The notes: generated by a model from the letters alone, not told the origin. 43,089 nucleotides of DNA from Candidatus Zymogenaceae bacterium (GCA_016931225.1 JAFGFE010000041.1:1-43089); one strand, 5' to 3'. Counted from the stretch's first letter, positions 24,662 to 43,089 are shown. Program-made: numbers and translations.

Positions 24662-25678
24662 ATGGATCTCAAGCGATCGTATTTCGAAGATATCAAGCTG
24701 TTCGAGAGCGGCGTCGTTCTGTTTTGGAGCGTCGTCCTCTTGGCCCTCCTCATTGCCTTCCCGCTGTTTGCAAAAACGTACTACATCTACATCGCAAGTC
24801 TCCTCTTAATCAACATCATCGTCGCTATCGGCCTGAACCTGCTGGTGGGCTATACCGGTCAGGTATCCCTGGGACATGCGGGATTCCTCGCCATCGGGGC
24901 GTACACGTCGGTGTTGCTGATGCTCAAGCTCGGATTCCCGTTCCTTGTGGCCCTGCCGCTGGCGGGATTGGTGTCGGCCCTGTTTGGATTCATCCTGGGG
25001 CTTCCCGCCCTGAGGATGGAGGGGCCGTATCTGGCCATCGCCACCCTGGGGTTTGGGATATCCGTCGAGCAGATCCTGGGTTTGATGGAGAAGGTGACCG
25101 GGGGCCGCATGGGGCTGGAGACGCCGCCGTTTCGGGTATTCGGGCACACCCTCAAGGGCGACCTGGTTGTCGGGTCATTCGCCCTGGGAGAAGAGCAGCA
25201 GATATATTTTCTCATCATGATCGTCACCGTGATCATGACGTTCTTGGCGATCAACCTGGTGCGCTCCCGCATCGGCCGGGCCTTCATCGCCATCCGGGAC
25301 AGCGACATCGCCGCGGAGAGCATGGGCGTCAACCTGACCTACTACAAGACCCTGGCCTTCGCCGTTTCCGCTTTTTTTGTGGGGGTGGCCGGCGCACTTC
25401 AGGCCCATATGATCACCTTCATCGCCCCGGTGCAGTACAACCTTATCCAGTCCATCTATATGCTGGCTATGGTGGTGGTGGGGGGGCTGGGATCGATACT
25501 CGGTTCCATCCTGGGGGCGATACTCTTTACCATGCTGCCCCAGCTTCTTGCGGAGTTGGGCTGGCTCAATTCGGTCATCACCGGCGCCATCATGGTTCTC
25601 ATCATCGTCTTCGAGCCCCTGGGACTTCGGGGACGATGGATAAAGATAAAAATCTACTGGAAGATGTGGCCGTTTTAA
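24662..25678 (+). CDS. livM: branched-chain amino acid-type ABC transporter permease LivM
   Basis: The 338-residue integral membrane protein has about nine hydrophobic segments and the LivM-family stretches IGLNLLVGYTGQVSLGHAGF (early helices) and MVVVGGLGSILGSILGAI. The cytoplasmic coupling region RSRIGRAFIAIRDSDIAAES contacts the ATPase. It forms the permease with LivH. AGGAG sits 4 nt before the ATG. The HAAT transporter family moves branched-chain amino acids, but relatives carry urea, amides, aromatic acids or other small carboxylates. The following acyl-CoA ligase gene hints at a carboxylic acid substrate. Confidence 0.93.
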   Translation: MDLKRSYFEDIKLFESGVVLFWSVVLLALLIAFPLFAKTYYIYIASLLLINIIVAIGLNLLVGYTGQVSLGHAGFLAIGAYTSVLLMLKLGFPFLVALPLAGLVSALFGFILGLPALRMEGPYLAIATLGFGISVEQILGLMEKVTGGRMGLETPPFRVFGHTLKGDLVVGSFALGEEQQIYFLIMIVTVIMTFLAINLVRSRIGRAFIAIRDSDIAAESMGVNLTYYKTLAFAVSAFFVGVAGALQAHMITFIAPVQYNLIQSIYMLAMVVVGGLGSILGSILGAILFTMLPQLLAELGWLNSVITGAIMVLIIVFEPLGLRGRWIKIKIYWKMWPF

Positions 25679-25701
25679 CGGGACCGTTTGGATAGGGATA
25701 T

Positions 25702-26667
25702 ATGAGCGAATTTGAAAAGATACTGTTTATCGTGCTCCAGGGGCTGGCCACGGGCAGCCTCTACGGGCTGATCGCCCTGGGGATCGTGATGATCTACAAG
25801 ACGTCCGAGGTCCTCAATTTCGCCCACGGCAACATGGGGATGGTCATCGCCTTTGTGAGCTATCGGCTGATGGAGAAATTCATGGCTCCCCTGACCGAAA
25901 TCGTTCATGGGACGATATCGACGGTCCCGTTTCTCTCGTGGATGGGGGAGGGATTCATCGTCTCGGCCATCTTTGCGTGCGTGCTTATTGTCAGCTTCAT
26001 CGCGGCGTTCGTGCTGGGCATGATCATCGAGTTGACCATCCGCGCGGCGGAGGAGCCGAATATGCTGGGTCTCATCGTCATCACCATCGGCTGGTGGCTG
26101 ATGCTGGACGGCGCCGCCATCCCGATCTTCGGCACCCAGGATCACCGCATGCCGGAGCCGCTTTCCCATTTTAAAATATACAAGCTGGGCAACGTCCCCC
26201 TCAACCAGCTCGACGTGATCATCTTCGCCATTACCGTCATCATTATCGTCATCATGTTTCTGTTCTTCCGCTACGCCCGGGTGGGCGTCGCCATGCGGGC
26301 CACGTCACAAAACGTGGACGCCGCCCGGCTGATGGCCATCAACACAAACCGGGTCTTTGCCCTCACCTGGGGGATCAGCTCCATGCTCGGGGCGTTGGCG
26401 GGGATTCTGACGGCGTCCAAGTTCTTTCTCAACAACAGCATGATGCTCTATCCGTTCTTAAAGGCCTTCGCCGCCGCCACCCTGGGGGGACTCACGAGCC
26501 TCCCCGGCGCCATCGTGGGAGGGTGGATACTGGGGGTGTCGGAAAACCTCTTCGGCCGCTACGTCTCCATGGATTTGAAGACGCCGTTTGCCTTTCTGGT
26601 GATCGTCCTCGTTCTGGCGATACGCCCCAGCGGGCTTCTGGCCCGGCATTACGAAAAGAAGGTGTGA
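25702..26667 (+). CDS. livH: branched-chain amino acid-type ABC transporter permease LivH
   Basis: The 321-residue membrane protein has the LivH pattern GLATGSLYGLIALGIVMIYK, LNFAHGNMGM near the N-terminus, the cytoplasmic EAA-like loop ARVGVAMRATSQNVDAARLM and a late TLGGLTSLPGAIVGGWILG. It is the partner permease of LivM. It begins 23 nt after livM with AGGGAT upstream. Order here is livM then livH, the reverse of the common LivK-H-M-G-F order. Confidence 0.93.
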   Translation: MSEFEKILFIVLQGLATGSLYGLIALGIVMIYKTSEVLNFAHGNMGMVIAFVSYRLMEKFMAPLTEIVHGTISTVPFLSWMGEGFIVSAIFACVLIVSFIAAFVLGMIIELTIRAAEEPNMLGLIVITIGWWLMLDGAAIPIFGTQDHRMPEPLSHFKIYKLGNVPLNQLDVIIFAITVIIIVIMFLFFRYARVGVAMRATSQNVDAARLMAINTNRVFALTWGISSMLGALAGILTASKFFLNNSMMLYPFLKAFAAATLGGLTSLPGAIVGGWILGVSENLFGRYVSMDLKTPFAFLVIVLVLAIRPSGLLARHYEKKV

Positions 26668-26744
26668 GGGATGTCATTTAAAATCGCATGTAACTCTGAA
26701 GTAGACTGCCGCGATCATCGATACTCATCATAACCATTTTTTAA

Positions 26745-26766
26745 CCTCATAAAAACATGAGGAGGG
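26745..26766 (+). promoter_or_regulatory. stem-loop overlapping the livK ribosome-binding site
   Basis: CCTCAT (26745-26750) pairs perfectly with ATGAGG (26757-26762) across a 6-nt loop. The second arm overlaps the strong ribosome-binding sequence GAGGAGGG (26759-26766), 4 nt before the livK ATG. Folding could hide part of the site, so translation control is possible, though six pairs, four of them A/T-poor at one end only, make a modest stem. Confidence 0.35.
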
Positions 26767-26770
26767 AACA

Positions 26771-27955
26771 ATGAGAGCAATCAAAATCATTTTTGTATGT
26801 GCGCTGGTCATCGGCCTGTTCTGTGCGGTGGCATCGGCCCAGGAGGTTCCCGGCGTGACCGAGGATACCATCCTCATCGGCACCACCGGCCCTCAGACCG
26901 GTCCGGCCAACGCTTGGGGCGCGGTCCAGCGGGCTATGTGGACCTACTTTCAGGCACTGAACGACGCCGGGGGGATAAACGGCAGGAAGCTAGAGCTGAT
27001 CATCCTGGATGACGGCTACTACCCGCCAAACGCCCTGGCCAACGTCAAGCGGCTGGTGGAGGAAGAGGAAGTGTTCTGTATCGTGGGCGTTCTGGGCGCG
27101 GCCAACGCCGAGGCGGTCAAGGAATATCTGGATGAGAGCGACGTGCCCTGGATGGGCGTCATCGCCGGTCATCGGGGCATCTCCGAGCCGCCCCTCGATA
27201 ATGTCTTCGTGGGTTATCCCCAGTATTATCTCGGCTCCCAGGCGCTGACTTACTACGCCGTGGAGGAGCTGGGCATCGAGAAGATCGGCGTGTTTTACCA
27301 GAACGACGAGTTCGGCGGCGACGGCAAGGCCGGCGCGGAGGAGGCACTGGCGGACCTGGGACTGGAAGTTGTGGCGGCGGTTCCCTATGAGGTGTCCGAC
27401 ACCGACTTTTCAAACCACGCTCTAACGATGATGGAGTCCGAAGCCGAGGCGGTGGTGCTCTACGGCACCGCCAAGCACTGCGCCCTGTTTGTGGGAAGCT
27501 GTGCCGCCCTGGGATACCTGCCCCAGTGGCTCGGCACCAGCGCCATTTCCGACCCGGTGATGATCAGTCTCTTGGGTGAGGCGTGGGACGGCGCCATAGT
27601 GGCAAATTTCGCCCCCAACCCACAGGATGATTCCGAGGCGTCCGTCTGGTATCGGGAACAGCTGGAAAAATACGCCGAGGGTGAGGCCGATACGGCTCCG
27701 GGGACTTTTACCATTGCAGGATTTTATTTCGCCGAGTACCTGGTCGAGGCCCTCAAGCGTGCGGAGGAACCGCTGACGAGGGAGGGCCTCATAGAGGCCC
27801 TGGATTCCTTCGAGAACGTCACCGGTATGTTTATCCATGACGTCACCTATACCGACGACGACCATCGGGGACAGACTACCTTCTATCTGATGCGGGCCGA
27901 CGCCGAGACGGGCGAGCTGGTCAAGATCACAGATTGGATATACCCCAGGGAATAG
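26771..27955 (+). CDS. livK: periplasmic binding protein of the Liv ABC importer
   Basis: The 394-residue protein starts with a clear Sec signal peptide (MRAIK, hydrophobic core, cleavage after ASA at 23). The mature part is a type 1 periplasmic binding protein with ILIGTTGPQTGPANAWG at the ligand cleft, ALNDAGGINGRKLELIILDD and a late GTFTIAGFYFAEYLVEAL. There is no lipobox, so it should be free in the periplasm. It has the strongest ribosome-binding site in the operon and is followed by a stable hairpin, as is usual for binding-protein genes that must be made in excess. Ligand unknown; the family binds branched-chain amino acids, amides and various carboxylates. Confidence 0.93.
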   Translation: MRAIKIIFVCALVIGLFCAVASAQEVPGVTEDTILIGTTGPQTGPANAWGAVQRAMWTYFQALNDAGGINGRKLELIILDDGYYPPNALANVKRLVEEEEVFCIVGVLGAANAEAVKEYLDESDVPWMGVIAGHRGISEPPLDNVFVGYPQYYLGSQALTYYAVEELGIEKIGVFYQNDEFGGDGKAGAEEALADLGLEVVAAVPYEVSDTDFSNHALTMMESEAEAVVLYGTAKHCALFVGSCAALGYLPQWLGTSAISDPVMISLLGEAWDGAIVANFAPNPQDDSEASVWYREQLEKYAEGEADTAPGTFTIAGFYFAEYLVEALKRAEEPLTREGLIEALDSFENVTGMFIHDVTYTDDDHRGQTTFYLMRADAETGELVKITDWIYPRE

Positions 27956-27973
27956 AATCACAGAACAACATAT

Positions 27974-27998
27974 GGGACGGGGCGAAACGCCCCGTCCC
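27974..27998 (+). terminator. stable hairpin after livK
   Basis: An 11-bp GC-rich stem (GGGACGGGGCG/CGCCCCGTCCC) with an AAA loop begins 18 nt after the livK stop. There is no T-run, so it is more likely a transcript-stabilising or attenuating hairpin than a full terminator, giving more binding-protein mRNA than ATPase mRNA. Confidence 0.65.
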
Positions 27999-28020
27999 GA
28001 ACGTGTGAGGTGAGGGGAAA

Positions 28021-28040
28021 AAACCGGTGGAATCCGGTTT
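28021..28040 (+). terminator. second stem-loop between livK and the ATPase gene
   Basis: AAACCGG and CCGGTTT form a perfect 7-bp stem around a 6-nt loop (TGGAAT), with an A-run before and CTT after. It is a weaker partner of the hairpin at 27974-27998 in the same gap. Confidence 0.4.
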
Positions 28041-28105
28041 CTTGAAGAAAGACAGTACGGCCGACGAAAGCCGGGCGTGCATGATTACAGGTATGCGGGC
28101 GGCAT

Positions 28106-29716
<1,611 letters not shown>

Positions 29717-29797
29717 TGATACCGGTCACTGGCCCGCGTGCGATGATGTCATAGTATAGGCATTGAAAAGATATCTCGAAAACAGCGAGGTGTTTTT

Positions 29798-31630
29798 GTG
29801 AGTACGGCACAGACACGACAATCGGCACACACCATCAATACGGTGCCGGATCTGTTTTTTTCCCAGGCGGAAAAGTACGGCGGCAGGGTTGCCATGCGTA
29901 CGAAGGAATTCGGCATCTGGCGGGAGATCGGCTGGGACGAGTACGCCCGGCACGTTCGTGAGGTGGCCGGTGGGCTTCTGGCCCTGGGGCACGAACCGGG
30001 AGAGCGGGTCGCCCTGATCTGCGAAAACCGCCCGGAATTTCTGTATATTGACCTGGGTATCCAGTCCGTCTCCGGCATTACCACCGCCATCTACACCACA
30101 AACGCCGCCAGCGAGGTGCACTACATACTGGATCACTCCGAGGCCCGGTTCTATTTCGTTGAGGACCAGGAGCAGCTCGACAAGGCGCTGGAGGTGGTCG
30201 ATGAGCTCCCGAGGCTCGAGAAAATCATCGTCATCGATATGACCGGGCTTCGCGGCTTTCAGGATGAAAAGGTAATAAGCTTCGGTGATTTCATGGAGAT
30301 GGGGCGGGAATATATACAGGAACATTCGGACGCCCTCTCCCGACGCCTGAACGCCATGAAAACCGATGACCCTGCCCTGATCGTGTACACCTCCGGCACC
30401 ACCGGCCCGCCCAAGGGGGCGATGCTGTCCCACGGGAATATCCTGTGGACCGTGGATTCTTTGGGAAAGTCCAACCGTATCTATGAAAACGACGAGGTAT
30501 TGTCCTACCTGCCGCTCTCTCATATCGCCGAGCGGGTCATGACGGTGTTCAACGGCATCCATTTCGGTTACACCATCAACTTCATCGAGAACCTCGACAC
30601 CGTCACGGACAACATGCGGGAGGTCTCCCCCACGGTGATCTTCGGCGTTCCCCGCATCTGGGAAAAATACCACTCCGCGGTACTGCTCAGGATGAAGGAC
30701 GCCACCTGGTTCAAGCGCGTCCTGTTCGCGGTCGCTTTGATGGTGGGGAACCGGTATGTACAGCAGAAGTTTTCCCGTTCGGGTGTCACACTTCCGATGA
30801 AGATCCTGTACGCACTTTTCAATTTCACCGTGTTCAGAAAACTCCGAGAGAGACTGGGAATGGATCGGGCGCGGCTGGTAATTTCCGGCGCGGCTCCCAT
30901 CTCTCCCGCGGTGTTGGAGTTTTTTCACGCCATCGGAGTTCCCATACGGGAGGTATACGGTCAGACAGAGGATTCCGGTCCCGCCACGATTCACCACGAG
31001 GGCGATATCAAGCTGGGCACCGTGGGAAAACCGCTGCCCGGCGTGGAGCTGGATATCGCCGACGACGGTGAGATACTGGTGAAGGGCGGGAACGTGTTTC
31101 TCGGCTATTTCAAGAATCCCGCCGCTACGGAAGAAACACTGAAGAACGGCTGGCTCCATACCGGAGATGTGGGTGTCATCGACAATAAGGGATACCTGAT
31201 TATTACCGACCGAAAAAAGGATATTCTCATCACCGCCGGCGGAAAGAACGTCGCCCCGCAGTTTATCGAAAACAAACTCAAGTCATCTCCCTACATCAAC
31301 GACGCCATCGTCATCGGCGAGGGGAAGAAATATCTCACGGCGCTCATCCTCATCGACGAGGAAAATGTGACGAAATACGCCCAGGAGAAGCGCATCCCCT
31401 TTACCACGTACGCCAACCTTTCGAAGAATCCGGAGATACATGCGCTTATCCATCGGGAGGTGGAACTGGTGAATAATGATCTGGCCCAGGTGGAAACCAT
31501 AAAAAAATTCACCATACTTGACAAGCGCCTTGACCAGGAGGACGGCGAGCTGACCCCCACCATGAAGGTCAAGCGCAAGAAGATCAGTGAGATGTATGAG
31601 GACATCATAGAAAAGATGTACGCTTCGTAA
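29798..31630 (+). CDS. long-chain fatty acid-CoA ligase-like AMP-binding enzyme
   Basis: The 610-residue adenylate-forming enzyme has the AMP-binding motif YTSGTTGPPKG (197-207), REVYGQTEDSGPATIH (A5 region), GWLHTGDVGVIDNKGYL and TDRKKDILITAGGKNVAP. The lysine in the C-terminal domain expected for adenylation is replaced by the long-chain-synthetase arrangement. It resembles the FAA1/FadD15 group that activates long-chain acids, but size of the acyl pocket is not readable by eye. It starts with GTG preceded by CGAGG at 7 nt. It follows the Liv genes by about 80 nt, and CoA activation of whatever acid that importer brings in is a reasonable link. Confidence 0.9.
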   Translation: MSTAQTRQSAHTINTVPDLFFSQAEKYGGRVAMRTKEFGIWREIGWDEYARHVREVAGGLLALGHEPGERVALICENRPEFLYIDLGIQSVSGITTAIYTTNAASEVHYILDHSEARFYFVEDQEQLDKALEVVDELPRLEKIIVIDMTGLRGFQDEKVISFGDFMEMGREYIQEHSDALSRRLNAMKTDDPALIVYTSGTTGPPKGAMLSHGNILWTVDSLGKSNRIYENDEVLSYLPLSHIAERVMTVFNGIHFGYTINFIENLDTVTDNMREVSPTVIFGVPRIWEKYHSAVLLRMKDATWFKRVLFAVALMVGNRYVQQKFSRSGVTLPMKILYALFNFTVFRKLRERLGMDRARLVISGAAPISPAVLEFFHAIGVPIREVYGQTEDSGPATIHHEGDIKLGTVGKPLPGVELDIADDGEILVKGGNVFLGYFKNPAATEETLKNGWLHTGDVGVIDNKGYLIITDRKKDILITAGGKNVAPQFIENKLKSSPYINDAIVIGEGKKYLTALILIDEENVTKYAQEKRIPFTTYANLSKNPEIHALIHREVELVNNDLAQVETIKKFTILDKRLDQEDGELTPTMKVKRKKISEMYEDIIEKMYAS

Positions 31631-32137
31631 TGTCGGGGGGGCATACACAGATGACAGAGAGAAACAGTGCGATTCGCCGTCCGATACTGCCAGCATTCCG
31701 TCCGCCGCCGGATTCACACACTCAAGACGGACGTTTCCGGTGATTCTTCGGCGGCTAATGGTAAGAAATTATATGTCTATGTGTATTAAAATATGGATAA
31801 TTAAGTATCATATTGAGAAATTTGAATATAATCTGAATACAGATTTAAAGGTTTTTTGTGTTGACTTCTCTTCTGAAAAAATTTAAAATATTTTACGAAG
31901 AATGTGTGCATTGTACAAAGAAATACTTCATCGCCGGGATTGTTTCAAGTGTTCGGGATAATTAAAAAAATTGCTCCGGCATGAGGTGAGCGGACATGGC
32001 GGTGAATGAACAGGCATGACATAAAACACGGGCTGACAATGATCAAATTTTAATAGGATTCGCTCATTCGGATGCTGCATGTCTGGCTGATTCTCAATGT
32101 GAGTTACTCCTGTTTTCTATATTAGTTCTGGTAGATT
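31631..32137. other. 507-nt AT-rich intergenic region
   Basis: No gene is seen. The first 110 nt are GC-rich and the rest is AT-rich. A perfect small inverted repeat AATCTG-AATA-CAGATT (31830-31845) lies just before a strong promoter candidate (31861-31889). A seven-codon frame near 31997 is too short to call. The region separates the liv/ligase genes from the surface-protein operon, and no clear terminator was found after the ligase. Confidence 0.55.
31861..31889 (+). promoter_or_regulatory. candidate sigma70 promoter of the surface-protein operon
   Basis: TTGACT (31861-31866) and TAAAAT (31884-31889) lie exactly 17 nt apart, close to consensus. Initiation here would leave a leader of about 240 nt before the barrel gene. 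The inverted repeat 16 nt upstream (31830-31845) could be an activator or repressor site. Confidence 0.5.
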
Positions 32138-34570
32138 GTGTTGAAAAAAAACATCGTTCTGAGGTCTCTACTGCTTTTATGCAGTATTCTTTTTATTATC
32201 CCCGTCAACGTCTTTTCCATCCTCATAGAAGACGAAGAGTCAGGAACCGATCTATTTTTGATGGGACTCGGGATCGTTCGGGTGAATTATTCCTCGATCG
32301 GGGGGAACGAAGTCGATTTTGAGGAAAGCGATCGGGGGCTCCCGGATTATTTCTCCAACACCACCACCGTGGATATCCTTGCCGACGGGGTGCTCTATCA
32401 CTATTACGACGTGGAGGGATATCTCCACTACCGGGAAAGAACGTACAACTACGAGCCGAACCTCGAATTCTACCTAAAAATTCAGCGGGATAAAAATTAT
32501 CTGTCGGCGGGCGACCATGATATGGGAGTCTTCACCGACACCCTCTTCACCAGGTTTGAACCGGAATTTCGAGGCGGCACCATTCACCTTGAGGGCGAAA
32601 AGTACGGCCTTGAATTGGTCGGTGGCGCGGTGCGAGGCGAACAGGCCGAGGAGGAGATCGCCGCCGACGGCTCATCCGGACCCTACTACCTGTCCAATTT
32701 CCCTCTCGTTGAGGGGAGCGAGACGATCTATCTCCGAGTCAGGGACAAGAACAATCCCTCGCGCATCGTCAAGGACCAGAAGATGCGCCGGGGTGTTGAC
32801 TACCGCATCGATTACGACGACGGAGAGATCACCTTCACCCGCAGGGTTGACGCCACGAATTTTGCGGGAAATCCGGTGTATATCCGCGCCACATATGATT
32901 ACGACGATCCAAACGGCGGATACAACCGGTACATCTCCGGCTCACGCCTGTGGGTTCAGCCCCACGAATATGTCCGGCTGGGAGTGACCTACCTCAACAA
33001 CATGCCGGATAGTTCCAGTCTTTCCACCATGTGGGATGAGAGGCTCCAGGTATACGGAACAGACCTGAATATCAATGTCAACGATGAATTTCTCCTTCAG
33101 GGCGAGATGGCAATCAGCGAGGTGCCCAATTCCGCCGATGACCTGAGGCGCTACGCCTATCGGGCCAATCTGCTCTGGCGGCCCGACGACCGATTCCAAC
33201 TGTGGGGAAACTACTACCGTGTCGAGCGGGATTTTCTCACCTTCGGTACCACAAGCCTCTCGATGGACAGCGTGGTGGAGGAGATATTGTTCGACAATCC
33301 CTTCACGTTCAAATCGGGCACGGCGGATTACGATTTGAACCCGGAAATCGAGATCGGACTGGGGACCGACGAGGAATCATGGAATCTGGGCGCCCAGTAT
33401 GAGTTTATACTGGATCATACTCTCACCGCCGGATATACCGAAACCCGGGACAACATTCCCCACGATACCCTGCTTCCCACGACCACCAGCAGGGACATGT
33501 ATATCAATTACACCTACACGCCCGCGGGGAAATTCCACTATATCGCGGGATTTGAGATGCTCATGGAAGAGGACGACTCCAATCCCCAGAGCTTGGACGA
33601 TCGCACCTGGCGGGCGCTTTTGGGGGCGCGGGGGATGCTGGGCGAAACCGGCGTGACGGGCCCGGTGCACCTGGAAACGGTGTATATTTTTGAAAACTAT
33701 CAAAACCGCATCGATTCCCTGGATGACACCAGGACACATTACATTCTCGCCAGGGTGGATATGGAGCCGGTCCCCGATTTTCGTCTGTATCTCGAGCAGG
33801 ATGAACTCCTGACGGACGGCGAGGACCGGAGCGGACTGACGCTTCGGGAGGACACCACCTACTTTGGATTTGCCTACGATAAAGAGAATTTCTCCATTGG
33901 AGTCGATTACAAGTTCGCACAAATGGACGACTATGTTGCGGGGTATGTCACCGACCGGGAGCATGTGGTCTCCACCATTATCACATACCGACCCATGACG
34001 ACGATAGTATCCCGGTTCAAGTTCGAGCTGGGTCTTTCCGAGGATATGACGACCGATCCCCGGACCGAAACATATGATTACCTGACCCAGGCGGAGATCA
34101 TCTGGGATATTACTCCCAACCTCATCCTGAGTCTCTTGTACGAGATGGAAATGACTCAGGATATCTCCGGCCCCGCCCGGGATGAGACATATGAGGATGA
34201 GGGAACGGTGATACTTGAGTATTCATCCGAGAGCGATATCGTGGCCTTCTATCTGGAATATACCCATGACCGAAGCCGGATCAGGACCTACCCGTTGGAC
34301 ACCATCACCACCGATACCGACACCATCATTGCGGGGGGGAAATATCGTTTTATCGAGGACTGGGAGCTGGTGGGCGGCTATAAATATGCTATCACCCACG
34401 GCGAAGTGGACAATCACAAGATGGACGGCTTTGTGGAAGTCGGGTATGAGCCCTGGGAATTTCTCAAACTGTCGGTGGGGTACGAATATCAGGAGTATTA
34501 CGACCGTGAAGATCATTCCAATGACTTCGACGCACATATCGGGTACTTCAAGGCGACGGGCAAGTTCTAA
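32138..34570 (+). CDS. predicted outer-membrane beta-barrel protein
   Basis: The 810-residue protein opens with a hydrophobic signal sequence (MLKKNIVLRSLLLLCSILFI). After an N-terminal segment, a compact strand-rich domain (about 190-255) contains GSETIYLRVRDKNNPSR and GVDYRIDYDDGEITF, a pattern I associate with large surface proteins carrying DUF11 repeats. From about residue 265 to the end, alternating polar/aromatic strands such as RFQLWGNYYRVER, NFSIGVDYKFAQMD and LKLSVGYEYQEYY recur, as in 20-plus-strand barrels. The last residue is Phe (YFKATGKF), the classic BAM-recognition ending. The GTG start lacks a visible ribosome-binding site; TTG at 32141 is an alternative. It is followed 16 nt later by the SdrD-B/DUF11 gene, so it may anchor or export those proteins. 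It has no TonB box or plug that I can see. Confidence 0.82.
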   Translation: MLKKNIVLRSLLLLCSILFIIPVNVFSILIEDEESGTDLFLMGLGIVRVNYSSIGGNEVDFEESDRGLPDYFSNTTTVDILADGVLYHYYDVEGYLHYRERTYNYEPNLEFYLKIQRDKNYLSAGDHDMGVFTDTLFTRFEPEFRGGTIHLEGEKYGLELVGGAVRGEQAEEEIAADGSSGPYYLSNFPLVEGSETIYLRVRDKNNPSRIVKDQKMRRGVDYRIDYDDGEITFTRRVDATNFAGNPVYIRATYDYDDPNGGYNRYISGSRLWVQPHEYVRLGVTYLNNMPDSSSLSTMWDERLQVYGTDLNINVNDEFLLQGEMAISEVPNSADDLRRYAYRANLLWRPDDRFQLWGNYYRVERDFLTFGTTSLSMDSVVEEILFDNPFTFKSGTADYDLNPEIEIGLGTDEESWNLGAQYEFILDHTLTAGYTETRDNIPHDTLLPTTTSRDMYINYTYTPAGKFHYIAGFEMLMEEDDSNPQSLDDRTWRALLGARGMLGETGVTGPVHLETVYIFENYQNRIDSLDDTRTHYILARVDMEPVPDFRLYLEQDELLTDGEDRSGLTLREDTTYFGFAYDKENFSIGVDYKFAQMDDYVAGYVTDREHVVSTIITYRPMTTIVSRFKFELGLSEDMTTDPRTETYDYLTQAEIIWDITPNLILSLLYEMEMTQDISGPARDETYEDEGTVILEYSSESDIVAFYLEYTHDRSRIRTYPLDTITTDTDTIIAGGKYRFIEDWELVGGYKYAITHGEVDNHKMDGFVEVGYEPWEFLKLSVGYEYQEYYDREDHSNDFDAHIGYFKATGKF

Positions 34571-34586
34571 ACGGCGGTGAATAAAA

Positions 34587-36833
34587 ATGAAAACCACACT
34601 TAAAATTACAGCACTGATTCTGATACTGACGGCCCCGGCGCTGGGTGTTTTCGGCCTTCCCCACGACCTGGGAATTGCCGGATCTCCGTCGATCTCGATG
34701 GTGGCGGTGGGTGACTTCGACATCCACGCCGCGCCGCCCAGGCGGACCGTGGACGCCGGCGACAACACCTTCTACACCGTTGTGGTCAAGTTTCACAATT
34801 TCGACGGCCCGGTGAGCCTCTCTGTTGAGGGGCTTCCCGCCGGCGCCGACTGGTCCTTCGATAAGAATCCGGTTGAGCCGAACGGACAATGTGAAAGCTG
34901 CGGCAACGCCGAGACAAAGCTCCGCATCAGCACGGAAAAAACCGCGCCCGCGGGTACCTATACCCTTACCATCGTCGGTGAAAGCGATGAGGTGGGCAGG
35001 CGCACCGACACGGTGACGCTGGTCATCGAGGGAGGGCAACAGGGCGACTTCGACATTCAGGCGTCCCCGTCCTCGAGGACCGTCGACGCCGGCACCGGCA
35101 CCTTCTATGCTGTTGTGGTCACGTTCGATGATTTTGACGACCCGGTGAGCCTCTCGGTTCGGGGGCTGCCCACGGGTACCGACGGGTCCTTCGACGACAA
35201 CCCGGTTGCACCGGATAAAAACTGCGGTTGTGATAAGACCGAAACGAAGCTCCGGATCACCACGGAGAAGACCGCGCCCGCGGGTACCTATACCCTGACC
35301 ATTGTCGGCGAAAGCGAGGGGGTGGGCACACGCAGCGACACGGTGACGCTGGTTATCAAAGGAGAGGAGCCCGAGGGGCATCTCGTCGCCGATCCGACGA
35401 CCAATACCATCGACCCGGGTGACGCCGCCCGATACACCGTCACCGGCAGGTCCAATGCCGACTTCGAGGCGGAGCTCTCGGTTTCGGGGCTTGTCGCCGG
35501 GATGAGCGCCTCATTTGAGCCGACGGCGGTGATCACGTCTCAATCTCCCTCTACCGTGCTTGTCGTGAAGACAGATGCGTCCGTCGCCGCGGGCACATAC
35601 AAGCTGGATGTGAAGGCGAGCGGCGGCATAGACGACGGCGTCACCGTTACCCTGATCGTGGGCGACGGTCCGGTTGAGGAGGAGTCGGGGAATCTCTCGG
35701 TGAGAAAATCGGCGACGCCAACCAGCGTCAAGGTCGGTAGCGTCGTCATCTATACCCTGCATATCGATAACACGGGACGGGGGGCCGTCTCGGATGTCGT
35801 GATCAGGGACACCCTGCCCACGGGCGTCGGATATGTCTCCGGCAGCACCATCAAGGACGGTAAGTTTTTCTCCGATCCGACGGGATCGTCCACGCTTCTG
35901 TGGCGGCTGGGAGAGCTTGCCGCGGGGGAATCGATTACGCTGAAGTATCACGTGACGGTCAAGGGGAACGCCTCACGGGGCCTGATGACCAACAGGGTGG
36001 TCGTTACCGGTACGGATCGTCGGGGTGTGAAGCTCTCGGATACCGACACCGCGGACATCTCACTTTCCGGGGACGTGATGGAGAGAAAGGGAAAAATAAA
36101 GGGAAGCGTCTTTGTGGACGCCAATGAAAACGGGATGAAGAACGCGGACGAGACCGGTCTGGGGGGCGTCACCCTGGTGATGGAAAACGGAGAGCGGGTG
36201 ACGTCTGAAGAAGATGGTTCGTTCCTGTTCGATGAAGTCAAGCCGGGTGAGCACCTGGTCGCCCTGGACGAGAGAAAGCTTCCCGACGACTATTTCCTGA
36301 TTGGGGAGTCATCGATCATCGTATCCGTTTTCTGGGGGGGGACCTCCCGGGTGGAGTTTTCCCTGGGATACATCCCGCCGCCCCCGCCGCCGCCCACCGC
36401 CGAGGAAATGCTTGCGTTGAGGGAGGCGGAAAAGAAGGCGCTGGAGGAAAAGAAGAAACAAGAGGAAGAGAAGAAAAAACAGGAAGAGAAAAATAAAGAA
36501 TCCACAGGCAAGGTATCCGGCCGAGTGTATGTCGATTCTAATGATAACGGAGTGTACGATCGCGGTGAAACGGGGGCGGAGGGAGTTGTGGTGCTTTTGG
36601 ACGGAACGAAAACCGCGACGACGGATCGAAGAGGGAACTTTGCCTTCGACAATATTTCCCCCGGTGCCCACGTGGTCTCCCTGCTCACCGACAGCGAGTT
36701 TTCCGATTCATTCCGACCGGGGAAGAAAGATCGCGAGCGGGTGACGGTTACAAGCAACGTGACTCATCTGGTTGAGCTGGCGGTGTTTGAGGTACACAAA
36801 CTCACGGTGGAAATAGAGTTAGATATTCAATAA
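34587..36833 (+). CDS. secreted surface protein with tandem beta-sandwich repeats, DUF11 and two SdrD-B-like domains
   Basis: The 748-residue protein begins with a Sec signal peptide (MKTTLKITALILILTAPALG). Three repeats of about 105-111 residues follow, at 42-152, 153-263 and 264-367; the first two are very alike and each carries a cysteine pair at the same offset (102/105 and 213/215). A DUF11-type domain (368-490) includes LHIDNTGRGAVSDVVIRDTL. Two SdrD-B/Cna-B-like domains (503-595 and 641-748) each have the calcium-site-like pattern VFVDANENG or VYVDSNDNG. Between them lie seven prolines (597-603) and a highly charged Glu/Lys helix (604-640). No LPXTG or C-terminal membrane segment is present. 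It probably sits in an operon with the barrel upstream and the giant DUF11 protein downstream. Confidence 0.88.
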   Translation: MKTTLKITALILILTAPALGVFGLPHDLGIAGSPSISMVAVGDFDIHAAPPRRTVDAGDNTFYTVVVKFHNFDGPVSLSVEGLPAGADWSFDKNPVEPNGQCESCGNAETKLRISTEKTAPAGTYTLTIVGESDEVGRRTDTVTLVIEGGQQGDFDIQASPSSRTVDAGTGTFYAVVVTFDDFDDPVSLSVRGLPTGTDGSFDDNPVAPDKNCGCDKTETKLRITTEKTAPAGTYTLTIVGESEGVGTRSDTVTLVIKGEEPEGHLVADPTTNTIDPGDAARYTVTGRSNADFEAELSVSGLVAGMSASFEPTAVITSQSPSTVLVVKTDASVAAGTYKLDVKASGGIDDGVTVTLIVGDGPVEEESGNLSVRKSATPTSVKVGSVVIYTLHIDNTGRGAVSDVVIRDTLPTGVGYVSGSTIKDGKFFSDPTGSSTLLWRLGELAAGESITLKYHVTVKGNASRGLMTNRVVVTGTDRRGVKLSDTDTADISLSGDVMERKGKIKGSVFVDANENGMKNADETGLGGVTLVMENGERVTSEEDGSFLFDEVKPGEHLVALDERKLPDDYFLIGESSIIVSVFWGGTSRVEFSLGYIPPPPPPPTAEEMLALREAEKKALEEKKKQEEEKKKQEEKNKESTGKVSGRVYVDSNDNGVYDRGETGAEGVVVLLDGTKTATTDRRGNFAFDNISPGAHVVSLLTDSEFSDSFRPGKKDRERVTVTSNVTHLVELAVFEVHKLTVEIELDIQ
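34710..35375 (+). repeat. tandem 330-nt coding repeat (two units)
   Basis: Units start at 34710 and 35043 and encode similar 111-residue domains. A 26-nt stretch is identical at 34941-34966 and 35271-35296 (330 nt apart), and the flanking DNA is also close, so the duplication is fairly recent or kept alike by gene conversion. A third, more diverged unit follows from 35376. Confidence 0.75.
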
Positions 36834-36851
36834 CATAAAACTTCGAGCGGT

Positions 36852-39800
36852 ATGGTCATGGTTGCCAGGTATATTCGGGTAATAACGGTTCTTTTATGTC
36901 TGTGTGTCGGGGCGTTCGTTCTCGCTCAGGATGTGGGGCTGGTTTCGCCGCCCTCAATCGAGGTCTGCGGCGAGGGTACGTTCACCATCACCGTGAACAA
37001 TCCGGGGGCGACACCAACTGACGATATCACAAATGTCGTGGTAACCGCCACACTGCCGGCGAATTATGAGTATTATTCCGCCTCCGGTTCGCCGAGTACT
37101 GCGGGCCTCCCGGACGTGGTATGGACCGTCGGAGACATGGCGGGCGGAGCCTCATGGTCGGAGACGCTCACCATCGGCCCGAACTGTTTTGCCACTACCG
37201 GGGGCACACTTGATGTAACGGTTACCTATACCGACTCCCTCTTAAACCCCCAGTCAATCAGCGACAATTCTCCCTCAATACTGGTTACCGAGCCGAACCT
37301 GGTGATCGAACTGACCGACGGCATCGGCGGGTCCACCCTGGTTCAGGAGCGGGAGGTGGGGGACACCGCCGAGTGGTACATCAGGGTCATCAACACCGGG
37401 CCGGGCCGCCTGAATAACGTGGAACTGGACGCGTCCTTCGGTGCGGGACTTACCGACACCAGCGGAATCGTATGGCCGGTGACCATCGGCGATATCGACG
37501 GATACACCACATACGATTTCTCGACGGCGCATGGGACCGTCACCGCAACGGTGGATGCGTGTTTGGACATCGCCACGATATTTACCGCCGAGTATGACGG
37601 ATGCGACGGCGCCACCGCCCCATGTACCCGGGTGACCGAAGAGGTGGAGGGGAGCGTGGAGCTCCTCTACAACACTCCGAACCTCCAGTATGATTTTTAC
37701 GACGCCGCGGGGGCGACGGTTCTTTCGAGCGTGGATATTCCCTACTGCGGCTCCTATACCGTCAGGGTTATCGTTGAGAATCCCGGGGCCGACGCAGGGA
37801 ACATCAGAAACCTCACATTCGAGGCGTCTTTTCCCGAACAGTTGATCCTCCTCAATGTATACGACACCGATGGTGCGTATAACGTGACTTTTGGTCCTCC
37901 CGGCGGTACGTATGATCCCGCCATATACGCATATGTATATACTATTTCGGTGGAGAATAACAATCCCGCCCTGGATTACGTCATCGCCCCCAATGGTACG
38001 GTGGAGTTCTTCTTCGAGATGGAATGGGAAAACCGCTGTTTTCCCGCCGACTGTGAGGCTCTGGTCTTCGAGCCGTACTTTTACGACGACTGCGGCGAGC
38101 CCTTCTATCCCCCGGTGAAGGAGCTGGCGGTGGGAGACGCGCCGACGGCGCCCTACTTTACCGTGGTGAAAACAGGGCCCGACAACTTGTCCGAGGGCGA
38201 TACAGACACCTACACCGTTACCGTCACCCTCGATGCTGACGCCATCGCATCGGTGGACGCCCAGGTCCAGGATACGTTTCCGGAAAGCTTCACCGCCAGC
38301 AATGCGGATCGTTCCGGAGTAATCGATAACAGCTCAGGAGTGAAAACCGTTACCTGGCCCGTGGTTTCATTCGCTCCAGGCGTGCCGGAGGTCTTCACCT
38401 TCGATCTCACCGCCAGTTACCTGGGAACCGATTGTACCGTCGGCGTGGAAAATTATGTTGAGCTGATAAACGTTGTGCCCATCTGTTACATCCCCGGCGC
38501 CCCTCCAATACCCTGCCCGGTGACACCGGACGATGATTACCTGAACCTGGTGGGAGACGATCTTTTAACCATCGAGAAGACTGACCCGAACGGTGACGGC
38601 GACTCGCTCTATATGGACGGCAGTGCGGCCACCTACCGGGTGACCGTGGGTTACGACGGCCCCCTGTGCGATTTCGGCGGCACCCTGCAGACCCCGCCCA
38701 TAACGGTGGTCGACACCTATCCCGCCGGCGGAATTATTTCTAATCTCGTCACGCCCGCAACCGTTATTGCAAATGTAGATCATACCTCCCGGACGATCAC
38801 CTGGGATATCCCCGTGGGATATACGGGCGCCTTTCCGGTCGTCCTGGAATACGACATGGCGATCGGTACCGCCGGTGACGGGTATTCGGCGGATTTGTGT
38901 ATCTGCGGTACCGTCGTGTCAAACAGTGTGACGGCGGAGTTGGCCGACACAGACTGCATTATCTGTAATGCGTCGGAGACCGCCGCGTCATTCAACCTCG
39001 GCGTCGATTGCGACGATGAACTGATAGCCCCGTTTACCTCATTAAAGGTCGCCAATCCGGGGATCGAGGACCTGTGCGACTGTGTTACCTACACCAATAC
39101 CCTGACGTTCAACGCCTCGATCGATACAGCGGGATCCACCTGGGCTGATATTTTCTTTACCGAAAACGGCGACAACAATCAGCTTTTCGACAACGCGGGC
39201 TCGTATGAGACAATCGGCCCGGCCACATTCACCCTGAACAGCGGTGCACCGATAACACAAAACATAACCCTGGGGTCTCCGATAGACCTCAGTTTTCTCC
39301 CCGGCACACCCGACGCCGGCGATGTGCTCGAGATCGAGTATACCATCTGTTTTACCGGCGGAGCCACACCCAGCGTACCCGGTGACTTCGTCGATTGGTC
39401 GGATTTTATCGTTTCCGGCTTTCCCAACAGCGTATGTACTACCAGCGACGAGTTTCACGAGGGCTGCTGGGTGACGGCCCGGGATCTTCCCCCCAACCTG
39501 GCTGTGTCCACATTCTGCCATTACCAGGGCGGCGTCTGTTCGTCGGTTATCCGTCGGTGCGAGGAATCCCTCTTCACCTTCCATCTCAACCAGACTAATC
39601 CCTCCTACGGGGTGCGCATCGAGGTGGATCTCGATGGTGATTTTTCCACCACCGGCGGATCGAATTACGATTATGTAGATTACGTGGGCCCCATACCGGC
39701 GAGTGCCGACACCGGCATCCTGGATGGATACTACGGCGCCCTGGACACCTCTGTTGCCGGGAGGCTCATTTGGGATATCGGCGATCTGACCGGCTCGGGC

Positions 39801-42800
39801 GACGGGAGCTTCAGCTTCTACCTCCAGAAGAACTGTGACGACGAAAATCGTGTTGAAGCACGGGTAATTTACTATGACACCTGCGGCGTCGAGTCGATAG
39901 ACGCCATGTCATACGAGGCCGGCCGAACATGGGGAGGGGACATCCTGATCAAGAAGACCCCGGAGGTTATCTTTGTCACCGATCGCATCACTCCCCCGGA
40001 GTGGGTGTTGTACGTGACAAACCGGGGCAGCGGGCCCGCCTTTTCTGTGGATGTGGTTGACGTGCTGGGCGAGGGTCTGGAATACGACCCCGGAAATCCC
40101 TATACGATCTCCGGCGTTGCCGCGGGGGAATCGGTGCTCTTTACCCAGACCAACGACTACCCGAATCCGGGGGAGACCACCTTGGAGTGGATCGTCAGCA
40201 AAATCCCCCCGGGTGAGACGGTGGAAATCACGTTGCCCGCGTATATCGTCGATTGCAACAATCGCACGAACAGCGTCATGGCGCTCTGGGGATGTGGTCC
40301 CACGGGCTATTGTGATGACACCGCTCCGGTGTACTCACATGTAGAGGAGCTCACCACAAAGGTGACCATCACCCAGCACTCCAGCACCGATGTTGACCTG
40401 TGTAAAAACAACGTGAGCACCGGCACCATCAAGTTCCAAAACATCGGGGAGTCAAACGCCTACAGCCTGGTGGTGACCGAACAGCTTCCCGACGGGCTTG
40501 AATATATTCCGGGTTCCTACACGATAGACTGCGACACCGACTGCGGCGTCGGCGTCAATTGCTGCGAAAACCCCGCGAGCTTCAGCTACAACGCCGGCAC
40601 CCGCACCCTGACCTGGGAGTTCTGGAACCAGCCGGGAGACGCCGGCATGAGCCCGGGGGCGGAATATACCATCACCTTCGACTACGAGCTTTCCACCACC
40701 GGCTGCGTCGATTATGTCGACGGCAGCACCATGTTACTGAACCTGGAGTATGAAACCGTCTGCGGCGACGCAAAGACCGTCGCCACAAACTCACTGAGCT
40801 CCCAGGAGGGGAATCCCGAGATCGAAGTGACCAAATCCCCGGACCCGGTATACGGTGAGCCGGGTGATTCGGTATCCTGGACGATCGTGCTGGAAAACAC
40901 CGGGAACATGACCGCGTATGACGTGGTGATGACCGATGATCTCCCAGACAACACCACGTTTTTCAGTATTACCCCGGTTGCAAGTCCCGCCCTCACTCCG
41001 GTCAGCGTGGTCGATCCCTATTCCTGGGAAGTGGTCGATATGAATCCCGGCGATTCGTTCACCTATACGCTCACGGCGACCATTATTGCCGGCGGGTGTG
41101 ACGTCCCGCTGGACAACGTGGCGGGGGTGGACTGGGGCTGCTGCTCCGGGGAGAGCGATTCGGCGAACGCGGGACTGGTAACCCAACCGGATGTTTCCCG
41201 CAATGTTTCGGCGAGCGGCATTGTCACCACATGCGGGGCGGGAATCGAAATAGTATTTACCAATGGGGCCACTTCCGCATACCATCCCCAAATTGACAGT
41301 ACGCTTCCAGCCGGGTATTCACATGTTGACGGCAATACTTCTATCGTCAGCGACCTGCGCGGGCCGCTGACCAACACATCCGGAATAGATGAGCCCATCA
41401 ACGCGGGATCGGACGGCCCCGTTACCCTGACTTGGGACGAGGACTATTTCGGCGGCGAAATTTTACAGAACGAGACCATCACCATCACCTACGATCTGGT
41501 CAGCAGTCCCGGCACCTGCGGCATAGACAAGACCGGTTCCAACAGTGTGGTGGTCACCTACGATGACTATTGCGGCACCGGGCCGATCGTCATGGCTCCG
41601 GCAACCGTTGATCTCACGGCCACCGCTCCGTCGCTGACCATAGACAAGGATCCCAATTTTCAGACTGTCCCCCCCGGTGGATATGCCGAGTGGACCATCG
41701 AGATAGACGAAACCGGCGGAGGAACGGCCGACGATTCCGTTATCATCACCGACGAGTTGGGATCAGATTACGTCCTTGGCACCATCATGGCCCCGAACAT
41801 TACCGACTATACCGGTTATACGGCGACGCCGACCATCACGCAGCCGGGCGGGGCGGGCAATCCCATATTCGTTGAGTGGACCGGGCTTTCACTGGACGCC
41901 AACGGCGATATCGACTTCACCCTGAGGGCGTATCCCGATTCCGGCTCACTGGAGGCGAACCTTTACAATACCGTCACCGTCACGATAGAGTGCGGGGCCT
42001 GTACGGCGGCGTCCGCCGTCGATACGGTCTATACCGGGTATTCCAATATTTCAAAGGACATCATTCCCGTAACCGCCACCATCGGCGAGATCGTGCCCAT
42101 CGAGATTGTCACCACATATTACGGCAGCACGACCGGATACACGAATGTGATCGTTGAGGATGTCCTGCCCGCCGATATGACATACGCGGGTTCGTGGAGT
42201 GTCTCGTATGTTGGCACGGACACGGAACCCACCGTCACCTTCGACAGCTATAACGCCGGTACGAACACCGTTAGATGGAACCTCTCGGGTTTCACCGGGC
42301 CCACCGACGATATCCATATACTTTTTGATGCGATGGTCCTCAACACCGCCACAAGCGACGACGGTGACACCCTGACAAACACCGGGAGGACATCATACGA
42401 CGCCGCCGGCTCTTCTTTTACGGACACCGCCACCGACACCATCGATCTTGTAGAGTCGCTGTTGACCATCACCAAGGATGACGGCACCGGCGGGATAGAC
42501 GTAAACGCCGGGGATGTGATCACCTATACCATCACCCTTGAGAACACCGGCAATTCCACGGCGTACGATGTTGAGGTGACGGACGTGATCCCGACGGGAC
42601 TTGAGTACGTTACGGGATCGATCTCCGGAACCGGCGCGGACGACAGCCTGGCTCCTGACCTCTCGTGGAGTATACCGAGTATCGCGGTGGGACCCGCCAA
42701 TGCGGTTGTGTTGTCCTACCAGGTAACAGTGGGCGACGACGTACAGCCTGCGGAGGTCCTCTGGAACGACGCCAATGTGACCTGGAGAAGTCTCGATACC

Positions 42801-43089
42801 ACAAACGGCGAGGAGCGGGAAGGCAGCGGAACGCCTGCGTATAACGATTATTTTGACAGCGCCCAGGATTCGCTCACCATCGCCACCGCCCACAACATCA
42901 CGAAGACGTTGATCGATCCTCCCGGCGGGAACGTGACGGTCGGCTCGGAGGTAACGTATCATATTGTCTACGAGCTTCCTGACGCGACGATACCGAGGGT
43001 TATCATTACCGACACCATCGGTGAGGGGCTGAGGTATTACAGCGGGATCAATTACGCCGAGGTGACGTTCCCGAACGGGAGCACGGCGA
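36852..43089 (+). CDS. giant secreted DUF11-repeat protein, partial (runs off the window end)
   Basis: The frame from ATG at 36852 stays open for 2,079 codons to the window edge, so the 3' end is missing. Residues 1-25 are a signal peptide (hydrophobic VLLCLCVGAFVLA, cleavage before QDVG). The rest is a chain of roughly 120-150-residue Ig-like/DUF11 repeats with the hallmark V-x-Y-T-I-x-x-x-N-T-G ... D-V-x-x-x-D-x-L-P, for example ITYTITLENTGNSTAYDVEV. Up to residue 1717 the repeats hold about 45 cysteines, often as CGAC, CC or CxxC near repeat ends. The last 360 residues seen have none. It follows the SdrD-B/DUF11 gene by 18 nt and so is probably its operon partner. DUF11 proteins are typically surface adhesins or sheath components; no function is provable here. 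Confidence 0.9.
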   Translation, partial: MVMVARYIRVITVLLCLCVGAFVLAQDVGLVSPPSIEVCGEGTFTITVNNPGATPTDDITNVVVTATLPANYEYYSASGSPSTAGLPDVVWTVGDMAGGASWSETLTIGPNCFATTGGTLDVTVTYTDSLLNPQSISDNSPSILVTEPNLVIELTDGIGGSTLVQEREVGDTAEWYIRVINTGPGRLNNVELDASFGAGLTDTSGIVWPVTIGDIDGYTTYDFSTAHGTVTATVDACLDIATIFTAEYDGCDGATAPCTRVTEEVEGSVELLYNTPNLQYDFYDAAGATVLSSVDIPYCGSYTVRVIVENPGADAGNIRNLTFEASFPEQLILLNVYDTDGAYNVTFGPPGGTYDPAIYAYVYTISVENNNPALDYVIAPNGTVEFFFEMEWENRCFPADCEALVFEPYFYDDCGEPFYPPVKELAVGDAPTAPYFTVVKTGPDNLSEGDTDTYTVTVTLDADAIASVDAQVQDTFPESFTASNADRSGVIDNSSGVKTVTWPVVSFAPGVPEVFTFDLTASYLGTDCTVGVENYVELINVVPICYIPGAPPIPCPVTPDDDYLNLVGDDLLTIEKTDPNGDGDSLYMDGSAATYRVTVGYDGPLCDFGGTLQTPPITVVDTYPAGGIISNLVTPATVIANVDHTSRTITWDIPVGYTGAFPVVLEYDMAIGTAGDGYSADLCICGTVVSNSVTAELADTDCIICNASETAASFNLGVDCDDELIAPFTSLKVANPGIEDLCDCVTYTNTLTFNASIDTAGSTWADIFFTENGDNNQLFDNAGSYETIGPATFTLNSGAPITQNITLGSPIDLSFLPGTPDAGDVLEIEYTICFTGGATPSVPGDFVDWSDFIVSGFPNSVCTTSDEFHEGCWVTARDLPPNLAVSTFCHYQGGVCSSVIRRCEESLFTFHLNQTNPSYGVRIEVDLDGDFSTTGGSNYDYVDYVGPIPASADTGILDGYYGALDTSVAGRLIWDIGDLTGSGDGSFSFYLQKNCDDENRVEARVIYYDTCGVESIDAMSYEAGRTWGGDILIKKTPEVIFVTDRITPPEWVLYVTNRGSGPAFSVDVVDVLGEGLEYDPGNPYTISGVAAGESVLFTQTNDYPNPGETTLEWIVSKIPPGETVEITLPAYIVDCNNRTNSVMALWGCGPTGYCDDTAPVYSHVEELTTKVTITQHSSTDVDLCKNNVSTGTIKFQNIGESNAYSLVVTEQLPDGLEYIPGSYTIDCDTDCGVGVNCCENPASFSYNAGTRTLTWEFWNQPGDAGMSPGAEYTITFDYELSTTGCVDYVDGSTMLLNLEYETVCGDAKTVATNSLSSQEGNPEIEVTKSPDPVYGEPGDSVSWTIVLENTGNMTAYDVVMTDDLPDNTTFFSITPVASPALTPVSVVDPYSWEVVDMNPGDSFTYTLTATIIAGGCDVPLDNVAGVDWGCCSGESDSANAGLVTQPDVSRNVSASGIVTTCGAGIEIVFTNGATSAYHPQIDSTLPAGYSHVDGNTSIVSDLRGPLTNTSGIDEPINAGSDGPVTLTWDEDYFGGEILQNETITITYDLVSSPGTCGIDKTGSNSVVVTYDDYCGTGPIVMAPATVDLTATAPSLTIDKDPNFQTVPPGGYAEWTIEIDETGGGTADDSVIITDELGSDYVLGTIMAPNITDYTGYTATPTITQPGGAGNPIFVEWTGLSLDANGDIDFTLRAYPDSGSLEANLYNTVTVTIECGACTAASAVDTVYTGYSNISKDIIPVTATIGEIVPIEIVTTYYGSTTGYTNVIVEDVLPADMTYAGSWSVSYVGTDTEPTVTFDSYNAGTNTVRWNLSGFTGPTDDIHILFDAMVLNTATSDDGDTLTNTGRTSYDAAGSSFTDTATDTIDLVESLLTITKDDGTGGIDVNAGDVITYTITLENTGNSTAYDVEVTDVIPTGLEYVTGSISGTGADDSLAPDLSWSIPSIAVGPANAVVLSYQVTVGDDVQPAEVLWNDANVTWRSLDTTNGEEREGSGTPAYNDYFDSAQDSLTIATAHNITKTLIDPPGGNVTVGSEVTYHIVYELPDATIPRVIITDTIGEGLRYYSGINYAEVTFPNGSTA

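Follow-up and report, generated by a model that had tools for sequence, protein, structure and literature searches.

Three tandem genes of a Candidatus Zymogenaceae bacterium (GCA_016931225.1, JAFGFE010000041.1:1-43089) encode a predicted outer-membrane barrel, a DUF11/SdrD_B protein and a giant DUF11 protein. We propose that the first two specify a split, two-part outer-membrane anchor (barrel plus DUF11/SdrD_B stalk) that holds the fibre encoded by the third at the envelope, probably reaching outside the cell. We give this reading an even chance of being correct. The window, that is, the whole stretch of 43,089 nucleotides analysed, is the entire contig C41 of a 3.7-Mb genome (G000) and contains the following features.

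31861..31889, + strand: promoter-like TTGACT-17-TAAAAT, intergenic, matching at 10 of 12 positions, no better than chance for the region
32138..34570, + strand: gene 1, predicted outer-membrane beta-barrel, 810 aa, GTG start, signal peptide, C-terminal Phe
32438..33127, + strand: best conserved barrel segment (aa ~101-330), common to the fused relatives
34587..36833, + strand: gene 2, exported candidate stalk protein, 748 aa, with Ig-like repeats, DUF11, SdrD_B, charged linker and SdrD_B
35694..36020, + strand: DUF11 domain of gene 2 (Pfam, E 3e-19)
36093..36371, + strand: first SdrD_B-like domain of gene 2, bounds approximate; DUF11-SdrD_B order as in the fused relatives
36372..36518, + strand: linker of gene 2, Pro-rich then Glu/Lys-rich, holding an 18-bp tandem repeat (36444-36499)
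36519..36737, + strand: second SdrD_B domain of gene 2 (Pfam)
36852..43088, + strand: gene 3, N-terminal 2,079 aa of the giant DUF11 protein; frame still open where the contig ends

The three open reading frames (barrel-like, 810 aa; DUF11/SdrD_B, 748 aa; giant DUF11) are separated by 16 nt between genes 1 and 2 and 18 nt between genes 2 and 3, and each opens with a Sec-type hydrophobic signal peptide read from the sequence. The initial annotation of three exported proteins in tandem with these gaps was therefore upheld. It had also named one good promoter candidate for the operon. Four promoter-like matches were observed in the region against 4.1 expected by chance, that at 31861-31889 being the best of the four. 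As the number of matches equals chance, the idea of a dedicated promoter was set aside.

The three exported proteins

No Pfam or NCBIfam family describes the gene 1 barrel, and its profile matched no sequence in the PDB. Pfam returned weak barrel matches alone (SlpA_C, 3e-4; Porin_4, 5e-4). By a crude count over the entire chain, 35 amphipathic strand-like segments were present, compared with 21.2 +/- 3.3 in shuffles. The mature chain contains no Cys and 8% Tyr, and the protein terminates in ...KATGKF. AlphaFold2, run on a two-sequence alignment that was too shallow, yielded a pLDDT of 27. The weak family matches, the excess of strands over shuffles and the C-terminal Phe are the basis for the predicted barrel topology; the assignment of gene 1 as a barrel is supported, not proved. 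Of the initial description of gene 1 as ending in the Phe of a barrel, the residue stands and the barrel is retained at this strength.

Gene 2 had been described as a mixture of repeats, DUF11, SdrD_B and a Pro/charged linker. This was borne out by its Pfam domains, with SdrD_B recognised in two stretches (2.7e-18), and by the linker with its 18-bp repeat. Family scans of genes 1 to 3 revealed no wall-binding OmpA or SPOR domain. In a related genus, G002 (contig C25, ~15,420), the gene 2 homologue is interrupted close to its start by an in-frame stop, which may reflect a sequencing error or decay of the copy.

DUF11 was matched along the whole of the part of gene 3 in the window (Pfam, 2.9e-54). 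The isopeptide-forming fimbrial domain TIGR04226 scored 90.7 and 125.8 bits in the giant against a curated cut-off of 30, and the fibre is perhaps stabilised by isopeptide bonds. Its first 2,079 aa include 48 Cys, and Pfam gave a weak match to Chlamydia OMP6. The protein resumes on contig C25 (L014:2-6697) as a frame of 2,231 aa. G002 encodes an intact giant of 4,389 aa directly behind its homologues of genes 1 and 2. Alignment to this protein places the window part at residues 6-2061 and the C25 part at residues 2141-4389, so that ~80 aa are absent between contigs C41 and C25. We put the full length at about 4,390 aa, the C41-C25 join being drawn from collinearity with the intact G002 relative and not from DNA. 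The earlier view of gene 3 as a giant repeat protein agrees with this length and with the presence of DUF11 throughout.

Towards its C-terminus the giant passes from the last DUF11 block into a region of ~1,090 aa, after which come a further DUF11-like domain and a tail that contains Cys. The ~1,090-aa region (L014:2909-6181 on G000 contig C25; L019:6830-10621 in G002) is 57-58% conserved in G002 and was itself present only in G000 and G002 among the 395 genomes of the phylum. Weak, sub-cut-off matches were obtained to (alpha/alpha) toroid sugar enzymes (GH88, AGE, C5-epimerase and GH127). Since no toroid sugar-enzyme family passed its cut-off in the region, we do not claim an enzyme. The motifs LYDHASMLWGL and LFDHVSLIWAM possibly denote two tandem toroids. 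In a giant DUF11/CARDB protein of another family (G115, L102:3-5111), the last DUF11-like domains are separated by a long stretch that appears helical and has a similar CCL start. No homology of its helical region to that of the Zymogenaceae was detectable, a weak match covering the last DUF11-like domain alone.

Gene order and fused relatives

A family relative, also named Candidatus Zymogenaceae bacterium (JAFGAS010000059.1), is placed by NCBI in the deltaproteobacterial lineage; in the GTDB scheme we take the phylum to be Desulfobacterota. The barrel was found in three of four family genomes (G000, G001 and G002), in each of which it is followed by a DUF11/SdrD_B gene and then a giant DUF11 gene. 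G052, from a different family, has the same three-gene order. The initial annotation had proposed looking for this order across genomes, and it is kept in all four: every free-standing barrel (4/4, from four genera and two families) has both partner genes downstream. An order kept in four genera would not be expected by chance. Every DUF11 match in G000, G001 and G002 falls inside the operon. Full-length homologues of gene 1 matched it at 50-55% in two genera and at 28% in G052, the fused proteins reaching 15-21%, and the four free-standing barrels formed a single group with support of 100/100 in an unrooted tree with long branches.

Phylum-wide, the barrel was present in 27 of 395 genomes. 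Outside the four free-standing cases, and with few exceptions, it makes up the last ~800 aa of chains ~1,500-2,700 aa long. Such fused forms, typically of ~2,000 aa, occur in ~20 other Desulfobacterota. Their alignment with gene 1 spans the full barrel, and DUF11-SdrD_B lies in their N-terminal half, arranged as in gene 2. A profile of the gene 2 DUF11-SdrD_B tandem matched 21 of 24 barrel proteins in the same chain, often as a continuous stretch. Among 17 fused proteins scanned, DUF11 was found in 14, SdrD_B in 13, CarboxypepD_reg in 15, OmpA in nine and SPOR in one; OmpA or SPOR is thus common, in at most 10 of the 17. Further same-strand DUF11 ORFs were present at 20 of the 24 barrel loci, and at some of these a DUF11 gene of 1,000-1,700 aa lies directly downstream. 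Homologous barrels that never neighbour DUF11 genes had been envisaged as evidence against a dedicated system. In fact, the free-standing barrels adjoin DUF11 genes in four cases out of four, and nearly all others are fused to DUF11/SdrD_B. A weak barrel-like match lacking DUF11 neighbours (G259:C95, L098) was rejected as a different, shorter protein.

Because the relatives carry the barrel and DUF11-SdrD_B as one protein, we read genes 1 and 2 as the split form. The fusion in relatives, combined with the strict order elsewhere, argues that the two gene products work together. Together with the negative secretion searches given below, these observations lend support to the earlier suggestion that the barrel may be dedicated to the other two proteins and anchor them.

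Several additional features of these loci were recorded. A recurrent opening of the fused loci (L056-L072 and others) is a DUF11 protein of ~165 aa plus one of 390-630 aa, ending in a similar strand, ...GxVxFKVxVK; several of the small partners match DUF11 weakly. By eye, the fused proteins of L065 and L062 have extended C-termini, with an OmpA-like end after the barrel rather than before it. Upstream of the operon (window 24662-31630) lie genes for an acyl-CoA synthetase and for an ABC transporter of branched-chain amino acids, whose LivG and LivF ATPases share a single 536-aa ORF. ABC transporter/acyl-CoA synthetase-like genes also adjoin the fused barrel loci of G388 and G038 (L057, L100); none were seen adjoining the operon in G001, G002 or G052.

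Anchor, export pore or envelope matrix

OmpA and SPOR domains bind peptidoglycan, and the N-terminal half of the fused forms should therefore be at least partly periplasmic. Their occurrence in the relatives is more in keeping with an anchor or stalk than with the passenger of an autotransporter. In a split anchor, the gene 1 barrel would sit in the outer membrane, the gene 2 stalk would occupy the periplasm or the face of the outer membrane, and all three proteins would interact. The giant, an acidic, Cys-containing chain of ~4,390 aa with DUF11/isopeptide-type Ig domains, would be held at the envelope and exposed at the surface, where the toroid region near its C-terminus may bind or act on glycans. 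If extended, its ~30 Ig-size domains would be longer than the periplasm is wide, which favours display with a barrel-stalk anchor. Counting against this reading, gene 2 carries neither OmpA nor SPOR, and Zymogenaceae encode other OmpA-domain proteins, so that their tethering need not depend on this operon. A more elaborate version gives the barrel and its separate DUF11/SdrD_B stalk both tasks, export and anchoring, for an isopeptide-stabilised fibre of ~4,400 aa with a glycan-acting toroid at its tip; we regard it as unlikely.

The initial annotation had seen neither a TpsB partner nor a type I or type IX tail, and had named a type I, II or IX signal in the then missing C-terminus of the giant as evidence against a dedicated system. 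The TpsB barrel (PF03865) had no match in the three Zymogenaceae, gene 1 included, and the end of the giant contains neither an RTX motif nor a match to a type IX sorting-domain model. The C-terminus holds instead the helical, toroid-like region together with DUF11. SprA_N was also without a match, but this search was blank in every control genome.

It is possible, if unlikely, that gene 1 acts as a dedicated, two-partner-like export pore for the giant, and perhaps also for gene 2, across the outer membrane. Tight linkage to a giant cargo in four genera would suit such a role, as would the size of the barrel protein, with some 35 strand-like segments on the crude whole-chain count. In addition, the three Zymogenaceae lack not only TpsB but any GspD over cut-off, their secretin matches all being sub-cut-off; G052 has one GspD secretin match over cut-off. 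However, no POTRA or TPS-like domain was found in the Pfam scans, and scans of the giant detected no TPS domain. The relatives, moreover, fuse the barrel to the stalk and not to the long DUF11 protein, and the OmpA domains among them point to an N-terminal half that is at least partly periplasmic. The end of the giant also appears to be a large, folded domain, which is awkward for a pore of this kind.

Alternatively, the whole set might form a periplasmic/outer-membrane matrix, a scaffold resembling SlpA/OmpM or OmcB in which the giant is coiled or cross-linked and not displayed. The peptidoglycan-binding domains of the relatives, the weak SlpA_C match of gene 1, and the Cys content and OMP6 match of the giant are consistent with this arrangement. 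We nevertheless consider it unlikely, as a ~4,390-aa protein is hard to fit in the periplasm and the glycan-enzyme-like toroid similarity near its end better suits an outward-facing tip. A reading of the barrel as an ordinary porin or channel lying by chance upstream of unrelated adhesin genes, with the giant exiting otherwise (for example by type I), accords with the weak Porin_4 match and with the TolC-type OEP proteins encoded elsewhere in the genome. We regard it as very improbable, since an order conserved across four genera, along with the fusion in ~20 others, leaves chance linkage untenable, and the N-terminal signal peptide and lack of an RTX motif argue against type I export of the giant.

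Relation to known systems

The split anchor that we favour has parallels in two described systems. In SlpA of Deinococcus radiodurans (PMC9388160), a large C-terminal outer-membrane barrel is joined to an N-terminal periplasmic stalk that connects outer membrane and wall; OmpM of diderm Firmicutes (PMC10628300) likewise combines a large barrel with a periplasmic stalk linking the two. The proposed plan of large barrel plus stalk, the weak SlpA_C match and the OmpA/SPOR domains of the fused relatives are points of likeness. In contrast, no SLH domain was found by Pfam/NCBIfam in genes 1 to 3 or among the families listed for the fused relatives. A coiled-coil stalk of the SlpA type was likewise not found here by family scans, which are not specific for coiled coils. 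The candidate stalk of the Zymogenaceae is instead DUF11/SdrD_B, encoded by its own gene with the giant fibre gene downstream of it.

The fused DUF11-SdrD_B-(OmpA)-barrel proteins of other Desulfobacterota share full-length barrel homology, DUF11-SdrD_B order and neighbouring DUF11 genes with the operon. They differ in being one polypeptide rather than two genes and in often carrying OmpA, and the partner DUF11 proteins at their loci measure 600-1,700 aa compared with ~4,400 aa in the operon. The giant resembles PF01345/TIGR04226 proteins in matching both models well over cut-off, and gene 2 shares DUF11 with them. Isopeptide pilins known so far come from Gram-positive bacteria and are linked by sortase, whereas the giant described here is accompanied by a Gram-negative barrel protein and includes a region resembling a toroid. 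An outer-membrane barrel gene adjoining that of a giant exported repeat protein also recalls two-partner secretion (TpsB/TpsA), from which the operon departs in the absence of PF03865 from the Zymogenaceae and of a TPS domain from the giant.

No description of the barrel family turned up in open PMC papers when the literature was searched for DUF11 barrels, SdrD B-like proteins of the outer membrane and Zymogenia; a paper on T11SS cargo mentions DUF11 in passing only. The family thus appears undescribed, in the sense of not being found in open PMC papers. With its modular DUF11/SdrD_B stalk it recurs in many Desulfobacterota without a Pfam or NCBIfam model, and its natural split into separate genes makes the parts easy to test. 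Such work would show by what means giant repeat fibres are held by Gram-negative bacteria that have neither TpsB nor type II secretion, and would extend the barrel-plus-stalk plan of SlpA and OmpM to another lineage.
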